This document shows, in pieces, positions 5,886 through 17,479 of a stretch of DNA of 28,259 bases (positions are counted from its first letter, which is position 1; each line of letters starts with the position of its first letter). The notes under the pieces are model-generated. The model saw only the letters and a list, made by a program, of their open reading frames with translations. It did no database searches and had not been told where the DNA came from. The position numbers and the translations under genes were made by a program. The stretch lies in IMG/VR virus record IMGVR_UViG_3300010149_000103, positions 1 through 28,259 of that record. One strand, given 5' to 3'. This DNA is from a virus.

Positions 5886-5942
5886 TTAATAACTCCTTGA
5901 GTGTTGGGCATGATAAGAACATAGCACAAGCATACTGTTCAA

Positions 5943-6257
5943 TCAATCAGGGTTTTTCTTGGGTCGACCGCGTTTTTTTGCGGGCGCTTTACCCCCCTCC
6001 CAAGCTTCATTTATATTAGGGGTTGAGGGATCATCCGCCAGAAGCTTACCTTTGGCGTTCCTCGCTCGTTTTGTTTCTTTTGGTGATGCGTTGCCTTGTA
6101 CTTCCATTGCAGCACCGCGATCAAGCATACTTTGAGCGATCGCTTTTTGCCACGCTTTACCAAGGGGCAAGAACTCTCCAGCCATGTATTTTCTTGCTGA
6201 CGTTCCATCCTCGTTATCTTCACCGACAACGCTATGAATCATTACAACTTTTTTCAT
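5943..6257 (-). CDS. Small basic-tailed protein downstream of the capsid gene (104 aa)
   Basis: The N-terminal half is a compact mixed alpha/beta segment with residues 20-50 (GTSARKYMAGEFLPLGKAW). The C-terminus is disordered and very basic, ending in KKRGRPKK, which contains the R-G-R-P core of an AT-hook. Its place directly after the major capsid gene fits a head-completion, head-decoration or head-tail joining protein. I do not recognise a family. The AT-hook-like tail suggests contact with packaged DNA, which is inference. The AAAGGTGGG ribosome binding site is strong but lies inside a hairpin (6262-6290). Confidence 0.65.
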   Translation of the reverse strand: MKKVVMIHSVVGEDNEDGTSARKYMAGEFLPLGKAWQKAIAQSMLDRGAAMEVQGNASPKETKRARNAKGKLLADDPSTPNINEAWEGGKAPAKKRGRPKKNPD

Positions 6258-8451: not shown

Positions 8452-8640
8452 TCAGACGTCAAAGTCTATGCGCCGCTCTACAAAAAGTTGGCTAATAGTG
8501 CTTTGAACAACACGCCAAGTCCTACCAATCTCCTCAGGTTCAACATAGGCTATTAGGTCTTTGATTGTCTCATAATCTTCGTTTGTCATTTCATCTTCTA
8601 AGCTAAGAATTTCCTGTATCTTATCAGCCGCCTCGCTCAT
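8452..8640 (-). CDS. Small acidic helical protein (62 aa), unknown
   Basis: The ATG at 8640 is preferred because AAAGGAT lies 6-7 bases upstream. Translation would begin 17 bases inside the end of the minor head protein gene, a coupled overlap. The product is acidic and probably all helical (EAADKIQEILSLEDE ... EEIGRTWRVVQSTISQLFVE), with no cysteines or membrane segment. It lies between the minor head protein and the prohead protease, so a head assembly accessory role is plausible but unproven. I do not recognise a family. Confidence 0.6.
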   Translation of the reverse strand: MSEAADKIQEILSLEDEMTNEDYETIKDLIAYVEPEEIGRTWRVVQSTISQLFVERRIDFDV

Positions 8641-10525
8641 CAAATATCCTTTCTATAATATCTAATGCTTTAGGGTGTACCAGTTCTTTCTTTCCCATCA
8701 TATAGAGCGCAAAACTTTCAACGAAAAACTCCTTCTCGTTTGTTTCCCCATAGCGCGTGGATATCTCAGCCTGTCTGCGAACCTTTCTGTATCCACGCCA
8801 GAACTTCTTTAGCTCCCCTTCTAAAGGTGGCGTCTTATCAAACAAGCTTCGGCGCTTCTTGTATATTTGGTGTATATGGTGACCGAACTCGTGGTACATC
8901 AGTGACCGCAAGTGCTGTAACCCGTGCGCACTGTACTCCTCGGCTGTCCATGGCTTGCTAATACTTGAGTCGTCGTTGCCAACATACCACAGCCGCGCTC
9001 TACTGCCCAACTGTTGCTCAGGGTTAAATATCTGTTGGTGCGCCCTGTCGTTTAGCAGCTCCTCACGCAGCTTGTCCCGCTGCTTGTATAACCGCTCGCG
9101 CCGCTTTGGGTCTGTGGTGTTTTCGATCTTTTCTTGTACTTCACGCAGTTTGGCTTGCGTTGCCGCCCGTGCCGCAAGGAGCTTGCGATACTCGCTTTCC
9201 AGTTCGCTAAGGTCTTGCACATCAAGGTCTTTAACGTAGTTGTTCACAAACCTAGCATTCAGCCCAAGTATCCCGTCACCCATATTGCCAACAACGCCAT
9301 CCCTCTTCACTGGCTTGATGCCCCGTAGCCTTGGGATGTTTAGCCAATCCGCAAAGTAGTTAAGCTCTTTCATAATTCCAGCAACCGCTATCACTGCATC
9401 GTCAGTCAACCCATCGTTTGCCCAGCTACCCACATCAGCAAGGGATCGGCCACGAAACACAACACGTCCCTCAATCTTGTATGACTTGTGCGTCATAGCA
9501 TCACTTAGGCGCTCTTGCGTTGCCGCCCAAGCATCACGTCTATTGGTTTTGCGGGCAAACTCCTTAAAGGTTCTGTTTGTTATGCCCGCCTCAAATGGGC
9601 TTACAAAGGTTTCACCAATAGGCAAGTCGGCAAGGACATCCTCAACCGCCTCCTCAAATAACTCTGGCTCTGGCTCATTAATGCGGGCCAGAAAGTCATC
9701 GAGCGGTGAGCCACCCGTGGGGGTATCCTCTGGTTCATCGAAGCTATCAAAAAGCGCATCCTCGTCGGTAAAATACACAGCAAGGCACCGACAGTTAATG
9801 TTATTTGCTGCACCCCCGCTCCCATCGTGCGGGTAGTCCATAGCGATCTCTTGGCCCTTAAATCGGATAATAAACTTCTCTTCTATGCCTACTTCTTGCC
9901 CGTTTGCCGCTGCGTGAAACGAACGTGTGCGCCCATCACCTACACTGACCCATCGTTTGCGCTGGGCTGGTAAGTTAAGCTCTTTGGTGGCTTCGTGGGT
10001 GGCATAGCTTGCCGCCGCGTGTGTTTCTGTGCGGGCTATGGTTGCCGCCCTTGCCCTGCCAATAGCCCCTTTAGTCTTTTCCTTAATCAGCTTGGCTGTA
10101 CTGTCTACGCCCAACCCTTCATCTTCTCCAGCGCGGATAGCCCGTAAGATGCGTCTGCGTGTGGTGTTCGTCACCCCGACAACCCTTTCCGCGCCCTCAC
10201 GTGCATAAAACTGAAACACAAAGTTACCAAAGGACGTAAGCTTTCGATTCTCATAAACCCTGCTCGCAAACTTGTTTATGACTACTTCGTAATGTGCGCG
10301 GTATATCCGCTCTAACTGCCCCTGCAAGGGTCGTAAGGCATCGTCTATTGTTTGTCGGCGTTGATACTCTTCAGCCGCTGCATCCCCCACCCTTGCAAAA
10401 GCTGTGTAAAGGCTTCGGGCCATTGCCCGTTCGTATCGCATCCGCAGCCGATTAACTTCCTTAATCTCTTTAGAGATAGATATTCGGGTCTTGTGCGCCG
10501 CTTTTATAAATACAGGAAACGTCAT
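8624..10525 (-). CDS. Mu gpF-like minor head protein fused to a zincin-like metallopeptidase domain (633 aa)
   Basis: Residues about 30-255 match the phage Mu gpF/SPP1 gp7 head morphogenesis family: RARAATIARTETHAA (157-171), then VGDGRTRSFHAAANGQ (195-210), MDYPHDGSGG (229-238) and the family signature NINCRC (242-247). A proline- and acid-rich linker (260-300) follows. The C-terminal half is not part of the family. It has a coiled coil at about 437-495 and an HEFGHH motif (H545, E546, H549), followed 54 residues after H549 by FFVESFALY, where E603 could be the third zinc ligand. That layout is typical of gluzincin-like metallopeptidases. Family members of gpF are usually far shorter. The protein is probably placed in the head at the portal vertex and may be ejected with DNA, so the peptidase could act in the virion or the host. 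The ribosome binding site is poor (AAAGGGC directly before ATG). Confidence 0.88.
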   Translation of the reverse strand: MTFPVFIKAAHKTRISISKEIKEVNRLRMRYERAMARSLYTAFARVGDAAAEEYQRRQTIDDALRPLQGQLERIYRAHYEVVINKFASRVYENRKLTSFGNFVFQFYAREGAERVVGVTNTTRRRILRAIRAGEDEGLGVDSTAKLIKEKTKGAIGRARAATIARTETHAAASYATHEATKELNLPAQRKRWVSVGDGRTRSFHAAANGQEVGIEEKFIIRFKGQEIAMDYPHDGSGGAANNINCRCLAVYFTDEDALFDSFDEPEDTPTGGSPLDDFLARINEPEPELFEEAVEDVLADLPIGETFVSPFEAGITNRTFKEFARKTNRRDAWAATQERLSDAMTHKSYKIEGRVVFRGRSLADVGSWANDGLTDDAVIAVAGIMKELNYFADWLNIPRLRGIKPVKRDGVVGNMGDGILGLNARFVNNYVKDLDVQDLSELESEYRKLLAARAATQAKLREVQEKIENTTDPKRRERLYKQRDKLREELLNDRAHQQIFNPEQQLGSRARLWYVGNDDSSISKPWTAEEYSAHGLQHLRSLMYHEFGHHIHQIYKKRRSLFDKTPPLEGELKKFWRGYRKVRRQAEISTRYGETNEKEFFVESFALYMMGKKELVHPKALDIIERIFDERGG

Positions 10526-11409: not shown

Positions 11410-13545
11410 TCAGTCACCTGTCTTAAGCGGGTGGCCCTCTGGCAGTAAGTCAGTGTCAAACTTGCCGCCCTTAAAGCGCCCATTACGCACAGCATACAAA
11501 AAAGAGTTGACGCGAGCGTAAGCCCACTGATCACTTGAACGCACTGTTGGCCTTACGCTTTGTGGGTTGGTGTTGTAAGCCCCGACACCCCGACGGAATA
11601 CAGCCTCCAACATTGATTGCGTGACTTTCTTCCCCTTCTTCTCTCCGTGTTCAGCGTTGTGTTCTTTAACTTTTTCAGCAAGCCCCTTTTTTACAGCCTC
11701 GCTGACTTTGGCCTTTTGCTCTGAGTAAGACTTTTCGCGCTCCTTGTCTAACTGATCAGTCTTACGGTTTGCCCAGCTTTGCCCTTCATCACCGCCCCAA
11801 CCAAGCCAAGCTATCAAGCCATTGCTAGGCCAGCCATCTTCACCCCTGCGAAAGCCTTGCGCTTCCTTATCTACTTCGTGCCGTGCAAAAAAGCTTTTCA
11901 TCCGACGAACAGTATTAGGCGATAAGCGCTCACGATCTATAAGCTGGTTAGCCCGCGCTACACCGACAGCCGTCATGCCCCGACCGTATTCCTTGCGCAA
12001 CTCTAATGATCGCGCTGCGTTCCGCGCCATTGCCGCTGTTGGGACAGTATCAACATCTCTTTCGGCCTTGTCTTCTTCGCCTTGCCAGCGAGCGCAAACA
12101 TACTGGATGCGCACTTCGGCATTAAATAGTTCGCAGTTGCCTTGCTCGAAGTGGATGCAGTTTCCACAACGCTCTTCACCATCGCCCATTCGATAAGCTT
12201 CTGGCAACTCGTCAGGTACTTCTTCACCGTCTGGATAGAAGTCAAGCTTAGAACCATATGCCGCTTTCCCTGCTTCCTCTGGGTCTTGCCCTTCATCTTC
12301 TGCCACCTCTGGGCCTCCGAGCGGGAACAAGTTAGCCGCAATAAACACTTCATCACCACCACTAATAGGCTCCAAACCCAAGCGCTCACGAGCTTCGTTA
12401 CGGCTGATAATCCCCTCACGCACTGCCGCAACTACGTTTTCGTATACCCGTCTGCGCCGTTCTGTCATTGCGGGTATGCTATCAACATCGTAACGGATAT
12501 TTATCTCGTCACCGAAGCTAGGGGCGAGCCATTCGTTTAAGTCGCTTTCAACGCGCTTGGCTAATGGGATAATCGTTTCTTCATATAACGCCAAACGCGC
12601 CTCTTGGACGTTAGCATAAGTCTGGCTGTCTGGGATACCAATTAGCTGAGAAGGAATACCAAAACAAAGCGCGATGTCTTTTGCTGCCATATGCTTATTT
12701 TGCAAGAAGTCCATATCCCTTGGGGACATGCCCATCTCCTTCCAATCAAAGTCTCCCTCCAGCAACAATGGTCGACCAGCGTTATTTTGCCCTGTAAACC
12801 TACTTTCCAAGTCGCTTGCCACTTGCTGTCGCTGTCCGTCCGTCAACATAGTCATATTGCCCATGTCATCCTTTGGCTTAAACACAATCGCGCCACTTGG
12901 CCTTGCGCCATTTACTAGCAACCCGATATTGTGTTTGGCGATCAGGTTGTGCTGATCCAAATCAACCGCAGCCGCCATAAGTGGAGACAAACCTAGATAG
13001 TCATCTAGCGGATTCCAGAATTTAAAGTGCTTAACCTCACTCTGACCAGTCATCGGGTCTGCATCGTATTGGGCGACGACCTGATTATTTAGCTTGTATC
13101 TGTAAGCCTTGGGTATCGATGTCTCACTTGGCTCAATCTCAACTCTATCTGGACGTAAAAGATAAAGCTCTGTCGGCACCATGTTCACAGCAGAAGCAAG
13201 GGCGTAACTGTTCCCCGACAAAAGCATAAATGAATAAAGCGCTTGAAAATATTCTACGCCCGCTTGGGTTGGGTTTGGCCTGTTGAGTAGGCTGATCAAT
13301 GGGTGTCGCTCTAGCTTTATATCACCTTGATACACCCTAAAAGGTATGGATGCTGCACCGTTTGCGATCTCATTTACACAGCGATAGACAATCGCGTTCT
13401 GTTGATACCCTTCACTAGCGTAATCCTTAAAATCGTCCTTACGCTTATGACTGAACATACTGCCCTGAACGTATACCTTGGGCGCTTCTTTTGTTTCAAG
13501 GCGCTGCCCAAAGATAGCCCCCCGCAAGTTGTCAATAATGCCCAT
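11410..13545 (-). CDS. Portal protein with long C-terminal extension (711 aa)
   Basis: Residues 1 to about 410 match the HK97-type portal family: AIVYRCVNEIANGAASIPFRVY (51-72), HPLISLLNRPNP, FYxxY-like helix, ELYLLRPDRVEIEP, GLSPLMAA, FGIPSQLIGIPDSQTYANVQEARLALYE (295-322), and EARERLGLEPISGGDEVF. It forms the dodecameric DNA gate at one capsid vertex. The usual length is about 400-450 residues. Here about 300 more follow: a four-cysteine knot (C460, C463, C471, C484), a helical region (502-595) with LSPNTVRRMKSFFARHE and GLIAWLGWGGD, a charged coil (596-640), and a DUF5824-like end (MLEAVFRRGVGAYNTNP ... SVRP ... SSDQWAYARVNSFL). The last parts resemble modules seen in other marine phage structural proteins. 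The start overlaps the terminase stop. Confidence 0.93.
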   Translation of the reverse strand: MGIIDNLRGAIFGQRLETKEAPKVYVQGSMFSHKRKDDFKDYASEGYQQNAIVYRCVNEIANGAASIPFRVYQGDIKLERHPLISLLNRPNPTQAGVEYFQALYSFMLLSGNSYALASAVNMVPTELYLLRPDRVEIEPSETSIPKAYRYKLNNQVVAQYDADPMTGQSEVKHFKFWNPLDDYLGLSPLMAAAVDLDQHNLIAKHNIGLLVNGARPSGAIVFKPKDDMGNMTMLTDGQRQQVASDLESRFTGQNNAGRPLLLEGDFDWKEMGMSPRDMDFLQNKHMAAKDIALCFGIPSQLIGIPDSQTYANVQEARLALYEETIIPLAKRVESDLNEWLAPSFGDEINIRYDVDSIPAMTERRRRVYENVVAAVREGIISRNEARERLGLEPISGGDEVFIAANLFPLGGPEVAEDEGQDPEEAGKAAYGSKLDFYPDGEEVPDELPEAYRMGDGEERCGNCIHFEQGNCELFNAEVRIQYVCARWQGEEDKAERDVDTVPTAAMARNAARSLELRKEYGRGMTAVGVARANQLIDRERLSPNTVRRMKSFFARHEVDKEAQGFRRGEDGWPSNGLIAWLGWGGDEGQSWANRKTDQLDKEREKSYSEQKAKVSEAVKKGLAEKVKEHNAEHGEKKGKKVTQSMLEAVFRRGVGAYNTNPQSVRPTVRSSDQWAYARVNSFLYAVRNGRFKGGKFDTDLLPEGHPLKTGD

Positions 13546-14843
13546 CAGCTAATTCTCCAAATCGGTTGGCCTGTCCGCTGGCTCAGTTCTGTAATAGCCC
13601 AAACCAAAGCGTCAAGCCTGTCGGGTGACTTGCGAGTATCTGGGGTATATGTTGTCAACTGATCTTCCAACTTTTTTAATTCACCCACGTGATGAACCTT
13701 GCCTTGCTCGTACAGTGCAGCGACAGGCTCAGCCCTTACTATCTTTCCCCGTGATGCGCGGACAGCGGTATAGGGGATATGCCTATCTATAGTTCTTACC
13801 ACTTTTTCTACCAAGTCGCCACCATTATTGACTTCTGCAATTAGTCTATCGGCGTTGTATTCGTGGAAAACCTCAACCGCTGTACGAGCCCAAGTGTCAG
13901 GACTCCCATGTATTGTGCGGTCATCAAGGACGTAAAAATGCCCATTGTCGCAACGCCCAGCAACAACAATACCCGTTTCGTCAGCGTCCTCTCCACTACT
14001 AACAGCGGGGTCTACAGCCACCACCACGCGCCTCAACTCTGGCATATCTGACCTTTTCAACCTTTGCCCTTCAATCATGCTCCAGTTCCACAGCGCCCCC
14101 TCTATGTCCTCCAAAACTTCAGCATAAAGCTCCTGTCTGCCAAGCCGTGTTCCTTCATACTTCTCGCGTAGTTGCTGTAATGCAGCGGGCGCTAGATTGG
14201 CTTCGTTGTCAAAAGTGCTCCCACGTGTCACCATCGTGCCCTGACGCTTTAGCAAGTTCTTTATTATCGGCGTGGGTTTAGGCGTTGTTGTTATGACACA
14301 CTGTGGGTTCTGACCTAAACGCAAACCAAACATTAGTTGGTCGAATGTTTCAGGGTAAGGCCACGCTGCAATCTCGTCACACCAAGCCCTGTGGAACTGT
14401 GGGCCACGCAAACGCTCAGGTTCGGTAGCTGCAAAGCCCTGTATAATTGATCCATTGTATAATCTTATTTCTTGCGCTGAACTGTTGTACCCCTGCCCCC
14501 TGCCACTAAGCAACAACTCGCGCGGCATGTAAGACAATATCCCGCTTTCACCGCCAAAGGCCACACGCTTCAAGTCACCAAAGGTAGGCACAACAACAGC
14601 CACACGCACATTCGGGTTCCGCAAGGCATACATCGCAGCATCAACACCGCCTGTTCGCGTCTTGCCCCAACCACGACCAGCCAAGATAAGCCAAACCGCC
14701 CAATCACCCTTTGGGGTTACTTGGTCAGCGCGGGCTGTATCAATCCAATCACTGTATAGTGTGGCGAGCGCCCTGTGACTTTGCCTCGGCAATGTCGTCC
14801 AGTTGGTCAAGCAATCGTGCAAGACTTGTTGGGATGCTGTCAT
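13545..14843 (-). CDS. Terminase large subunit (432 aa)
   Basis: This is the ATP-driven DNA packaging motor with a headful or site-specific nuclease. The Walker A motif is GRGWGKT (57-63 region), Walker B is AWCDEIAAW with D156 and E157, and the coupling motif is TTTPKP. The RNase H-like nuclease has D278 in VAVDPA, an acidic residue in LIAEVNNGG (E337), and D411 in SPDRLDALVW. The family resembles the terminases of gene transfer agents and siphophages of alphaproteobacteria. Length is normal. The ATG at 14843 lies 95 bases inside the small-subunit gene. The conserved part starts near LYSDW (residue 29), but no other ATG is available before the Walker motif. Confidence 0.96.
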   Translation of the reverse strand: MTASQQVLHDCLTNWTTLPRQSHRALATLYSDWIDTARADQVTPKGDWAVWLILAGRGWGKTRTGGVDAAMYALRNPNVRVAVVVPTFGDLKRVAFGGESGILSYMPRELLLSGRGQGYNSSAQEIRLYNGSIIQGFAATEPERLRGPQFHRAWCDEIAAWPYPETFDQLMFGLRLGQNPQCVITTTPKPTPIIKNLLKRQGTMVTRGSTFDNEANLAPAALQQLREKYEGTRLGRQELYAEVLEDIEGALWNWSMIEGQRLKRSDMPELRRVVVAVDPAVSSGEDADETGIVVAGRCDNGHFYVLDDRTIHGSPDTWARTAVEVFHEYNADRLIAEVNNGGDLVEKVVRTIDRHIPYTAVRASRGKIVRAEPVAALYEQGKVHHVGELKKLEDQLTTYTPDTRKSPDRLDALVWAITELSQRTGQPIWRIS

Positions 14844-15306
14844 CTGCCACTACCTTCGTTATTTCACCAGCTTCACCCAGCGCCAATTTGCCCATCTTCT
14901 GCGCTTTAAGCCCAGCATCAAGCAGTTCGTTTAACTCTTTTGCGCTCAATACGGGCTGTTGTGCGTTCCGTTCTGCCCGTAAAGCCAAGCGCAAATCACG
15001 CGATACCTTTTCCAGACCAGCCTTTGCAATGGTAATAGAGCTGCTATCCAGCTTTTCCATATCCTTTGCCGCTGCTTCTGCCCGTTGCTTATTTACCCTT
15101 TGCATGTAGTGGGCATGATATTCGTTCTTTTGTTGCTGCCACTCTTGCGCCTTTGCCCGCCTATAGACCGTGTTCTTTGGCACAGTGTGCCGTTCTATTA
15201 GGTGCTCAAGGGTTGGAAATATGCGCTCTCCGTTGTCGTTCTCGTATCCTTCGACAAACTCTTTGCGGATTGTTTCGTTAATTTCGTCTGTAATTTGTCC
15301 AGCCAT
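14749..15306 (-). CDS. Putative terminase small subunit (185 aa)
   Basis: It lies directly upstream of the large subunit, the normal place for the DNA-recognition subunit. Residues about 25-50 form a helix-turn-helix (LEHLIERHTVPKNTVYRRAKAQEW), followed by a long basic helical region that could oligomerise, and an acidic Leu-rich tail (SLARLLDQLDDI) that may contact the large subunit. The ATG at 15306 is preferred; a TTG 12 bases earlier would add four residues. The 3' end overlaps the terminase gene by 95 bases, unusually long. The assignment rests on position and the HTH rather than clear family motifs. Confidence 0.72.
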   Translation of the reverse strand: MAGQITDEINETIRKEFVEGYENDNGERIFPTLEHLIERHTVPKNTVYRRAKAQEWQQQKNEYHAHYMQRVNKQRAEAAAKDMEKLDSSSITIAKAGLEKVSRDLRLALRAERNAQQPVLSAKELNELLDAGLKAQKMGKLALGEAGEITKVVADDSIPTSLARLLDQLDDIAEAKSQGARHTIQ

Positions 15307-15318
15307 GACCGTCACCAA

Positions 15319-15852
15319 TTATTGCCCATTTGATAACCAAGATAGCAAATCCTTGGCTAAATTTGAAGTATCCTCAATTTTTCGCAAGTAATGTAACTCT
15401 ATTACCTCCCCTAGCTGCTTTTGAATGTTGGCTGTTTTTGTTTGCCTACCCTGTAAAAACTTAGCAGTTTGGGTGTCGCCGCGTTGTTTATGGCGCTCAT
15501 GTAAATCTTCTGCACTCGCCTTTAAGATAATCACCCGTGTTTCATACATTGCCATAAGCTTTTGAAGGTTAGCCCCTGTGAACAACCTATCGCCCTCAAA
15601 TAACAGGTTGCGACTTCGCTTCTCTGCGTACTTAAGGAAGTGCGGGTTTACATTCATTGCAAGCTTATCTGTGCCGAGAAATGTTTCCCCTGTTCCGTAT
15701 ATGCCGAGAAGGGCCAGATTACGGGTGTTGTCTACATGCCCACGAACCAGCCCAAACTTAAAGCCTTTAGGCTCATTCAGTGTATCATAAATCTTGCTAA
15801 CTAGCGTTGTCTTACCCGTGGCGGGTTCTCCCCCTATCGCTACGCATCGCAT
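15319..15852 (-). CDS. P-loop kinase, hydroxymethylpyrimidine DNA kinase-like (177 aa)
   Basis: The N-terminus carries a Walker A loop GGEPATGKTT (7-16). Later motifs are LLGIYGTGETFLGTDKLAM (48-66) and LLFEGDRLF (83-91); the E-G-D-R-L acidic motif is typical of phage P-loop kinases linked to DNA base hypermodification. HERHKQRGD (118-126) and FLQGRQTKT could be the lid that contacts phosphates. Such kinases phosphorylate the 5-hydroxymethyl group of bases in phage DNA. Here the gene directly follows an oxygenase that could make that group. The two overlap by one base (TAATG), so they are coupled. Alternatives are a nucleotide or polynucleotide kinase, or a zeta-toxin-like enzyme; I favour the base-modification role because of the neighbours. 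Confidence 0.75.
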   Translation of the reverse strand: MRCVAIGGEPATGKTTLVSKIYDTLNEPKGFKFGLVRGHVDNTRNLALLGIYGTGETFLGTDKLAMNVNPHFLKYAEKRSRNLLFEGDRLFTGANLQKLMAMYETRVIILKASAEDLHERHKQRGDTQTAKFLQGRQTKTANIQKQLGEVIELHYLRKIEDTSNLAKDLLSWLSNGQ

Positions 15853-16793
15853 TATCCGTTAAGCCCCTTTAAGTCTGTTCTGTTCTTAATTACCTCTAGC
15901 TCGTCCTCTGCGCTGCCACAGTTCATCATGTTCTCTCGATAATAGCACACGATGCTGATGCGCTCATATGGGCCTTTAGCCTTAATCGGAAGGTTTCCGT
16001 GTAGCTCATGCACATTAAAAAAGCACACATCGTTAGATCGCACATCAAACCCAACGCGGAAACGCGGCATACAGGTATATCCACCTTCGTACTTGCCAGC
16101 TTGCATCACGGCAATGTTACCAAGCCCGCCTTCGTAGTCGCCAGCGTCATAGTGCAGTGCTGTTCTAAAGTTCTTATTGACCGTTACAGTCGTAAACACC
16201 GTATCCCCGATAACAAAGTCTTTGTGCGTATCCTGTACGACCTTGTTCTGTGCTTCCCAGCGAGAGGGGCAAGCCTTCTGAAACTCATCGCTGATGCGCT
16301 TAATATATGGGTATGCCTCTGAGAACTGTCCGAAGTTCTTTTCTGTCCACGCAGTTTGTCGGCAGTATGGGAAGCGCAACGTTCTGTCAAAGTAGCCAAT
16401 GATGCCGCTGTTGACCATCTTGGCGCGTGTCTGCTTAGAAACATATCCGTCTTTTGTTACGTTACGATAGCGCTTCTTTTTGGTGTCGGCATCAATAACG
16501 CCCTGCCGCACACTAAGCACCTTGTCATCGTTAACATAGAACTCGCCAGCCGCGTCACCCCTGTTGTCGGTTGGTGTTGCTGCATGTCTTAACGCACCGT
16601 AAGCCGCCTTACATAAAGAAGTCGGTATTACGTTCTTGCGGAACATGAAAAGCGGGTTGCCATCCTCATCGTAGGCATCGCAGTCATAATCAATAATGTG
16701 GTCAATCTCGTGTTCCTCTAGGAACGTACCCGCCCGCGCTGACCATTCTTCCTTCGTGCCGTAGGCTTTTGCCTCAAAGATTTTTACACTCAT
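15852..16793 (-). CDS. 2-oxoglutarate/Fe(II) dioxygenase of the TET/JBP type (313 aa)
   Basis: The C-terminal half has the features of TET/JBP DNA-base oxygenases: TVTVNKNFRTALHYDAGDY, where H214 and D216 form the HxD iron site; then NIAVMQAGKYEGGYTCMPRF; SNDVCFFNVHELHGNLPI, with H265 the probable third iron ligand; and YERISIVCYYRE, with R278 the likely 2-oxoglutarate-binding residue. The MVNSGIIGYFDR segment (126-137) is also typical. These enzymes oxidise the methyl group of thymine or 5-methylcytosine in DNA. No cytosine methyltransferase is seen in the window, so thymine is one candidate substrate. It is flanked by a ParB-like gene and a P-loop kinase, with 20- and 1-base overlaps. The gene lies in one transcript with the terminase and portal, consistent with modification after replication. 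Confidence 0.82.
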   Translation of the reverse strand: MSVKIFEAKAYGTKEEWSARAGTFLEEHEIDHIIDYDCDAYDEDGNPLFMFRKNVIPTSLCKAAYGALRHAATPTDNRGDAAGEFYVNDDKVLSVRQGVIDADTKKKRYRNVTKDGYVSKQTRAKMVNSGIIGYFDRTLRFPYCRQTAWTEKNFGQFSEAYPYIKRISDEFQKACPSRWEAQNKVVQDTHKDFVIGDTVFTTVTVNKNFRTALHYDAGDYEGGLGNIAVMQAGKYEGGYTCMPRFRVGFDVRSNDVCFFNVHELHGNLPIKAKGPYERISIVCYYRENMMNCGSAEDELEVIKNRTDLKGLNG

Positions 16794-17388
16794 TTTCTAC
16801 CGCCAACACCACAGCGTCTGTGATGTTCTCCAAGTTGTTAGCTTTCATTATCTTATCGCATTGTTCGCGGAACCGTGGCTCACTTTGCTGGTCTAAGTAT
16901 AACAAAACCATCTTCACATGGTTAGCGGGCAAAACGTCCAACCCTTCTTCTTCAAGCTCTTCTTCTAGCTCGTCCTCGCCCTCGAACTGCAATAGCTCCT
17001 CGTTAAGCTTGGCAATCTCGTCTAGTTCAAAGCCTGTAAGCCCCATGTCATAATCAAGTTCTGCAAGTAAGTTAAACTCATGGGCTAGAAGCTCTTTATC
17101 CCACTCAGAAAACTCAGCAGTCTTATTGTCTGCTATCCTGTAAGCTGCTTTCTGCGCGTCACTTAACCCCTTGGCAATGACACAAGGAACACTATCAAAG
17201 CCCAAAGCAGTCGCAGCAGCGTGTCGGGTATGCCCCGCAAGTATAATCTTCTCCTCGTCAATAACTATCGGTTGCTGCCAGCCAAATTCTTTCAAGCTCT
17301 CGGCGACCTTTGTAACCGCAACATCGTTTTTTCTTGGGTTGTTATCGTATGGTTTGATGTCTGTAATGTTAAAAAGCTCAATTTGCAT
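16774..17388 (-). CDS. ParB-like nuclease-domain protein (204 aa)
   Basis: Residues 8-100 match the ParB N-terminal domain: ITDIKPYDNNPRKND (8-22), VAESLKEFGWQQPIVIDEE, and GHTRHAAATALG (52-63) with the conserved GHTR motif, then AAYRIADNKTAEFSEWD. This domain binds CTP in chromosomal ParB and occurs in phages beside DNA methylases and base-modification enzymes. The remaining part has an acidic run (residues 136-149, mainly E/D and L) and a C-terminal alpha/beta segment. There is no ParB HTH of the classical kind. AGGTGG precedes the start. It is the first gene of the leftward modification-packaging operon. It may guide or license the modification enzymes on DNA; this is inference. Confidence 0.85.
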   Translation of the reverse strand: MQIELFNITDIKPYDNNPRKNDVAVTKVAESLKEFGWQQPIVIDEEKIILAGHTRHAAATALGFDSVPCVIAKGLSDAQKAAYRIADNKTAEFSEWDKELLAHEFNLLAELDYDMGLTGFELDEIAKLNEELLQFEGEDELEEELEEEGLDVLPANHVKMVLLYLDQQSEPRFREQCDKIMKANNLENITDAVVLAVENECKNL

Positions 17389-17447: not shown

Positions 17448-17479
17448 AAAAAAAGCCCCGCTGCACTACCAACGGGACT
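17448..17479 (-). terminator. Rho-independent terminator after the leftward replication genes
   Basis: On the minus strand AGTCCCG (17479-17473) pairs with CGGGGCT (17460-17454) with one G-U pair and a 12-base loop, followed by a run of seven T. It lies about 95 bases after the stop of the 167-aa gene and separates the replication transcript from the ParB operon. Confidence 0.75.

Follow-up and report, generated by a model that had tools for sequence, protein, structure and literature searches.

The marine phage contig analyzed here, IMG/VR virus record IMGVR_UViG_3300010149_000103, carries a three-gene cassette that probably directs a post-replicative modification of thymine, in which 5-hydroxymethyluracil (5hmU) would be made in phage DNA by a TET/JBP-family oxygenase and then phosphorylated by a P-loop kinase. 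The window, as the term is used below, is the whole stretch of DNA that was analyzed, namely the entire record of 28,259 bases. The cassette lies on the minus strand in the order ParB-like protein, TET/JBP oxygenase and P-loop kinase, and is followed by a terminase small subunit (TerS)-like ORF, the terminase large subunit (TerL), and the portal protein:

17454..17479, minus strand: terminator-like hairpin with a T tract, just upstream of the ParB-like gene (consensus match alone)
16774..17388, minus strand: ParB-like (ParB_N) protein, first cassette gene, 204 aa (Pfam ParB_N, 6.2e-8)
15852..16793, minus strand: TET/JBP-family 2-oxoglutarate/Fe(II) dioxygenase, 313 aa (Pfam Tet_JBP, 2.6e-19)
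15319..15852, minus strand: P-loop kinase, predicted 5-hydroxymethyl-pyrimidine DNA kinase, 177 aa (phrog_800, 2e-9)
14749..15318, minus strand: putative terminase small subunit (weak match to phrog_1206, E 0.025; position conserved)
13545..14843, minus strand: terminase large subunit, TerL (Terminase_6N, 5.4e-19; Terminase_6C, 3.8e-17)
11410..13545, minus strand: portal protein, next gene in the same direction (Phage_portal, 6.3e-79)

Conservation of the cassette and its surroundings

A sequence-only reading of this DNA had described three coupled genes, encoding a ParB domain with a GHTR motif, an oxygenase with an HxD...H...R signature, and a P-loop kinase with an EGDRL motif, and all three ORFs were found on the minus strand at the positions given above. 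Its further statement that both terminase subunits and the portal follow directly downstream was borne out by Pfam for TerL and the portal, the TerS-like ORF being weakly supported. The ParB-like and TET genes overlap by 20 bp and the TET and kinase genes by 1 bp, and dozens of viral contigs retain the block ParB-TET-(...)-kinase-TerS-TerL-portal. When the window was compared with the relative L011, whose TET is 89% identical, the pS and pN values were 0.81 and 0.076 for the TET gene, 0.89 and 0.169 for the ParB-like gene, and 0.75 and 0.246 for the kinase gene. Synonymous sites near saturation, together with low nonsynonymous change, indicated that all three genes are under purifying selection. 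The three-gene cassette was thereby confirmed as real and not a chance arrangement. A distant lineage (L135, 1386-3342; L139, 1605-3561) showed the order ParB-kinase-TET followed by TerL, the enzyme order being reversed. The hairpin at 17454-17479 is a likely candidate for the 5' border of the transcription unit; no counterpart was seen at the same place in L011, and the terminator was consequently dropped as evidence.

The ParB-like protein matched phrog_620 (2.7e-52) and phrog_498 (3.3e-45), the latter corresponding to the N-terminal part of ParB-DNA methyltransferase fusions, and its GHTR motif occupies residues 52-55 (17224-17235). In nearly every locus of the window clade, TET follows this gene directly. 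This ParB-like group is common in phages (554 records) and is often annotated as, or adjoins, DNA methyltransferases, a tie with which a role in DNA modification fits. We suggest that the protein probably helps the TET and the kinase to find or stay on DNA.

Several features were noted elsewhere in the window. At 5886-5943, the gene after the major capsid protein adjoins tail-fibre-like genes, and near relatives have a 12-13 kb head-tail/tail module (G004_53-64 and G043_44-56) that the window lacks. L008, a nearly identical contig, stops at about window position 6172, so this junction stands without support and may represent either a deletion or a misassembly. A MuF-like head protein (8624-10525) carries, fused at its C terminus, a metallopeptidase-like domain of the HExxH type (HEFGHHIH), for which the Pfam peptidase match was below the cut-off. 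At the 3' end of the portal gene, a 48-bp segment is identical between the window (11428-11475) and L011 (15379-15426), in surroundings of about 70-80% identity, which may reflect either local exchange or a constrained DNA site.

The oxygenase and the kinase

The oxygenase scored 69.5 bits against Tet_JBP (curated cut-off, 34.9) over the full domain (profile positions 3-164 of 164), and the residues H214, D216, H265, and R278, which form the HxD...H iron triad and the 2-oxoglutarate arginine, were invariant among 25 TETs. The TET family profile matched human TET2 among the PDB sequences (E 8e-5). Single-sequence phmmer searches of the same PDB sequences with one TET or one kinase returned nothing relevant and were uninformative, so family profiles were needed. 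The AlphaFold2 (AF2) model of the oxygenase (pLDDT 85.6) had a double-stranded beta-helix fold closest to those of TETs, and its top 26 Foldseek matches in the PDB were all of the TET type (TET2, NgTET1, CMD1, and CcTet), with TET2 as the best match (9.4e-12) and FTO ranking after these first 26. The concern that structure prediction might place the protein with protein or small-molecule hydroxylases was settled by this model, which groups it with TET2, NgTET1, CMD1, and CcTet instead. On the strength of the model, the oxygenase is a nucleic-acid-type TET/JBP enzyme with a predicted DNA oxidation activity.

TETs of the window kind were found in 13 of the 50,697 records of the phage collection. 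When cellular genomes were scanned with the TET alignment, no relative emerged, and hence no host or prophage clue was obtained. GenBank labels phage TET/JBP proteins as "SNF2 DNA repair protein" or "DnaJ chaperone" (HTVC112P gp18, Cr30 gp129, DLP6, and S-CBWM1). Two more small proteins resembling 2-oxoglutarate oxygenases were seen, by eye only, amid tail-fibre genes of the close relative G004 (G004_5 and G004_6; L064-L066).

The Walker A motif of the kinase (GEPATGKTT) lies near 15805-15831 and its EGDRLF motif near 15580-15597; the invariant residues of the family include G8, G13, and K14 of the P-loop, D62, E86-G87...R89, R120, R124, and Q128. The best PHROG for the window kinase was phrog_800 (2e-9), which also holds Pseudomonas phage M6 gp54 (2e-39), a protein matching the Pfam 5-hmdU DNA kinase family HMUDK_HMUD1 (7.7e-18). 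In an hhalign comparison with M6 gp54, the kinase family profile gave an E value of 4.5e-5 over the N-terminal half only, with a probability of 69%. No Pfam family, HMUDK_HMUD1 included, exceeded its cut-off on the window kinase, Ploopntkinase3 reaching 16.6 bits; the related Kozie gp4 matched Ploopntkinase3 at 4e-18. The AF2 model of the kinase (pLDDT 90.5) folds like an NMP kinase, its neighbours including AK6, PSTK, and thymidylate kinase (TMK); compared with PDB sequences, the kinase profile gave nothing beyond generic P-loop matches. The helical partner HMUDK_hel, which M6 has, was absent from the window, G004, G005, and G022. As a member of the same PHROG as the M6 kinase, the window protein is predicted to be a 5-hydroxymethyl-pyrimidine DNA kinase. 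The label "terminase small subunit", given to PHROG 800 and used in GenBank, covers 5-hmdU DNA kinases, the proteins concerned being M6 gp54 (NC_007809, 41685-42248), Cr30 gp114, and the window kinase; the presence of gp54 in phrog_800 and its Pfam match make this label misleading.

Proposed pathway, substrate, and link to the terminase

Use of the kinase alignment alone as a scan query yielded 76 further kinase loci. A TET was encoded in each of the 42 loci having 4.7 kb or more upstream of the kinase, the 18 loci without TET all falling short of this length, and also in 6/6 kinase records examined earlier. Because TETs are rare in the phage collection, this co-occurrence does not represent background. 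An amino acid:DNA transferase (ADDT) accompanied the kinase in 64 of the 76 loci. In relatives whose TET is 72-73% identical and whose flanking genes keep the same order, ADDT, DAO, GATase, and GNAT genes were found between the TET and kinase genes, or the kinase was replaced by a TET-associated glycosyltransferase (TAGT). The gap between TET and kinase held ADDT, GATase, and a GNAT-like gene in, for example, L014-L019, L021, L022, L036, L040, and L044; ADDT, GATase, and an FAD oxidase in L020 and L050; and ADDT with an N6/N4 methyltransferase in L030, L031, L037, and L041. TAGT was present, with no kinase detected, in L023-L028 and L032-L034, and the Microbacterium phage Kozie showed the order TET-ADDT-FAD oxidase-kinase. 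The ADDT of the relatives belongs to the family of M6 gp51, and, judged by sequence, the enzymes between TET and kinase, or TAGT in place of the kinase, are thymidine-hypermodification machinery in these relatives.

Family, fold, and gene neighbourhood lend strong support to the general claim made earlier, that the methyl group of a base is oxidized by a TET/JBP enzyme and then phosphorylated. From the families and folds, the conserved active sites, the order and co-occurrence of genes, and the absences observed, we infer substrate, product, timing, and purpose as follows. The TET/JBP enzyme would oxidize thymine in phage DNA at its 5-methyl group, giving 5-hydroxymethyluracil with the use of 2-oxoglutarate, Fe(II), and O2, and the kinase would use ATP to turn the hydroxymethyl group into 5-phosphomethyl-uracil in DNA. 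In the relatives, ADDT would displace the phosphate with an amino acid, followed by trimming or decoration, and in the window lineage the pathway would probably end with the phosphorylated base, or close to it. Its purpose would likely be to shield virion DNA from host nucleases.

The supposition that a decorating enzyme lies outside the window found no support for this lineage, as the near-complete 47 kb close relative G004 lacks ADDT, TAGT, and HMUDK_hel. No ADDT was found in the window, G001, G004, G005, G006, or G022 by a profile including diverged members, nor by Pfam where tested, and no TAGT in the window, G004, G005, or G022; the absence of ADDT from the window lineage suggests that the phosphomethyl base is the product or that another enzyme uses it. 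The TET tree places the window lineage within a set of lineages that bear ADDT or TAGT. The minimal ParB-TET-kinase triad reappears in L084, L105-L108, L143, and L135/L139, and by parsimony the minimal state needs five changes on this tree. The comparison of the window with L011 further indicated that the kinase is under selection even without ADDT. We tentatively propose, while regarding it as rather doubtful, that ParB-TET-kinase is a complete two-step pathway, present in the window lineage and independently in about four others, with 5-phosphomethyl-deoxyuridine as its end product in virion DNA. Equally tentatively, this base would mark the DNA with a double charge and would be formed from ordinary thymine within the polymer, by a unit that shares its transcription with the terminase.

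There is also some chance, albeit a minor one, that the kinase only activates the base and that a further transferase, of phage or host, replaces the phosphate, so that the base would end up as an adduct with an amino acid or another group, as in the relatives. This possibility concerns the last step only and is compatible with a thymine-modifying cassette. The frequent company of ADDT in the kinase loci argues for it, as does the M6-type pathway, in which the kinase product is described as an intermediate in the account given in PMC6449724, and no function is assigned to several genes in the window and in G004. However, the six window-clade records named above yielded no ADDT, the minimal state takes five changes on the TET tree, and the sole gene common to the window and G004 and missing from the other relatives compared encodes a protein of 112-117 aa that is not enzyme-like.

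With respect to the base that is oxidized, the sequence-only reading had named thymine or 5-methylcytosine (5mC); the results narrowed this towards thymine and away from 5mC, through the absence of methyltransferases and the thymidine-pathway genes of relatives. A C5 cytosine methyltransferase was found in none of the 44 window-type TET contigs, which include the complete G043 (49.9 kb, with 97-bp terminal repeats) and the close relative G004, and it was absent from the complete genomes of HTVC112P, P12024L, Cr30, C48C1, and Kozie. None of 41 further kinase contigs had a match over the cut-off. The initial impression that the window holds no methyltransferase or glycosyltransferase was matched by our searches, which found neither a C5 methyltransferase nor TAGT in it. 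Thymidylate-synthase-type enzymes (PF00303) were not detected in the window clade, while the M6 positive control was found; Cr30, a distant relative, carries a thymidylate synthase. The lack of both enzyme types in the window branch makes thymine in DNA the simplest substrate for TET, and ADDT and DAO in close relatives, which belong to thymidine pathways, count against 5mC. Thymine, oxidized within DNA, thus appears to be a likelier substrate than 5mC from gene content. The alignment of 25 sequences revealed no base-specific residue in the TET active site. D219, located three residues after the iron aspartate, was considered as a discriminator between thymine and 5mC and rejected, since the branch with the C5 methyltransferase and that of the window alike have aspartate at this position. 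In the literature on phage thymine hydroxylase, we found no test of such an activity.

We regard it as unlikely that the TET-kinase pair of the window acts on 5mC, in which case a host-supplied or too-diverged methyltransferase would provide 5mC, the TET would convert it to 5hmC, and the kinase would phosphorylate the latter. The only records with a C5 methyltransferase, Melnitz, G046, and G047, have it directly upstream of a homologous TET-kinase pair, so that such a pair can evidently serve 5mC too, and the TET structures matched by our model act on 5mC. However, the TETs of these three are distant (25-28% identity) and form a separate clade on the TET tree, no window-clade record has a C5 methyltransferase, complete and near-complete genomes included, and the ADDT and DAO of close relatives are thymidine-pathway enzymes. 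The distribution of the methyltransferase suggested two branches, namely a 5mC branch with its own methyltransferase and the window branch without one. In the 5mC branch (L005, 6269-7552; L055, 1007-2281), the gap between TET and kinase holds a gene without a clear family, in which a ParB-like stretch was noted by eye.

It is very improbable that the kinase is in fact a terminase small subunit or a zeta-like toxin in a coincidental neighbourhood: PHROG 800 bears the terminase label and the gene sits just upstream of the terminase genes, but a separate TerS-like gene comes next, phrog_800 holds the Pfam-called 5-hmdU DNA kinase gp54, the kinase strictly co-occurs with TET, and the zeta toxins brought up by the earlier reading were absent from the top 50 fold matches of the model, with Zeta_toxin scoring 13.3 bits on the window kinase (cut-off, 22.3).

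Returning to the thymine-modifying cassette, 72 kinase-TET loci had a detected TerL or room for one, these rows being partly redundant; in 45 of them, including all 16 minimal loci outside the 5mC branch, TerL was located within 3 kb downstream on the same strand. The TerS-like homologue in L011 matched phrog_1206 with an E value of 7.6e-4. The TerS-like and TerL genes overlap by about 95 bp (14749-14843) in different frames, and this overlap is kept in relatives. The recurrence of TerL downstream supports co-transcription with late packaging genes. Modification at packaging, as proposed earlier, is a possible reading of the gene order; the link to the terminase is real and recurrent, but it reveals how the genes are arranged and not when modification happens.

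Implications and comparison with known systems

If the proposed pathway is correct, it would represent a phage route to modified thymine on finished DNA that requires no special nucleotide pool, unlike that of M6-type phages, and phage enzymes that hydroxylate thymine in DNA would be useful as reagents. The locus would be modular, with the step after 5hmU swapped (amino acid, sugar, or phosphate) and TET and terminase constant, and it might yield a DNA base bearing a free phosphate. A database label is also corrected, as the PHROG 800 "terminase small subunit" family holds DNA-base kinases.

In the M6-type pathway, as outlined in PMC6449724, 5hmdU is acted on by a kinase and then by a transferase. 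The proposed pathway resembles those of M6, Salmonella ViI, and Delftia phiW-14 (Lee et al. 2018, 2022, as presented in PMC6449724) in proceeding from 5hmU through a 5-hmdU DNA kinase to tailoring, and differs from them, as far as that presentation goes, in that 5hmU would arise in DNA by a TET/JBP enzyme and not as a nucleotide via a thymidylate-synthase relative. The window kinase falls in the PHROG of M6 gp54 and the relatives of the window carry the ADDT family of M6 gp51, whereas the window lineage itself has neither the HMUDK_hel partner nor ADDT. For the Rhodococcus phage Tonitrus, a thymidine hypermodification set of ParB-TET-aGPT-Pplase2-5hmU kinase has been predicted (PMC11955845). 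Both clusters unite a ParB-like protein, a TET-like J-binding protein, and a 5-hmU DNA kinase, but aGPT-Pplase2 is absent from the window cluster, the phage and host are different, and the Tonitrus set is a prediction only.

Phage TET systems for 5mC hypermodification (Burke et al. 2021, PNAS) reportedly work with a C5 methyltransferase. Those of Melnitz, G046, and G047 are similar to the window in placing TET/JBP together with kinase or tailoring genes, and differ in having directly upstream the C5 methyltransferase that the window clade lacks. In the kinetoplastid base J pathway, JBP1 and JBP2 are proposed to hydroxylate thymine in DNA, which a glucosyltransferase then decorates. The predicted TET/JBP hydroxylation of thymine in DNA before a second enzyme acts is common to both pathways, and the TAGT-bearing relatives L023-L028 offer an even closer analogy; the window system, however, belongs to a phage and not to a eukaryote, and is predicted to phosphorylate rather than glucosylate. 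The kind of system described here is therefore already known, as in Tonitrus, and what is new is its recurrent minimal, terminase-coupled form.
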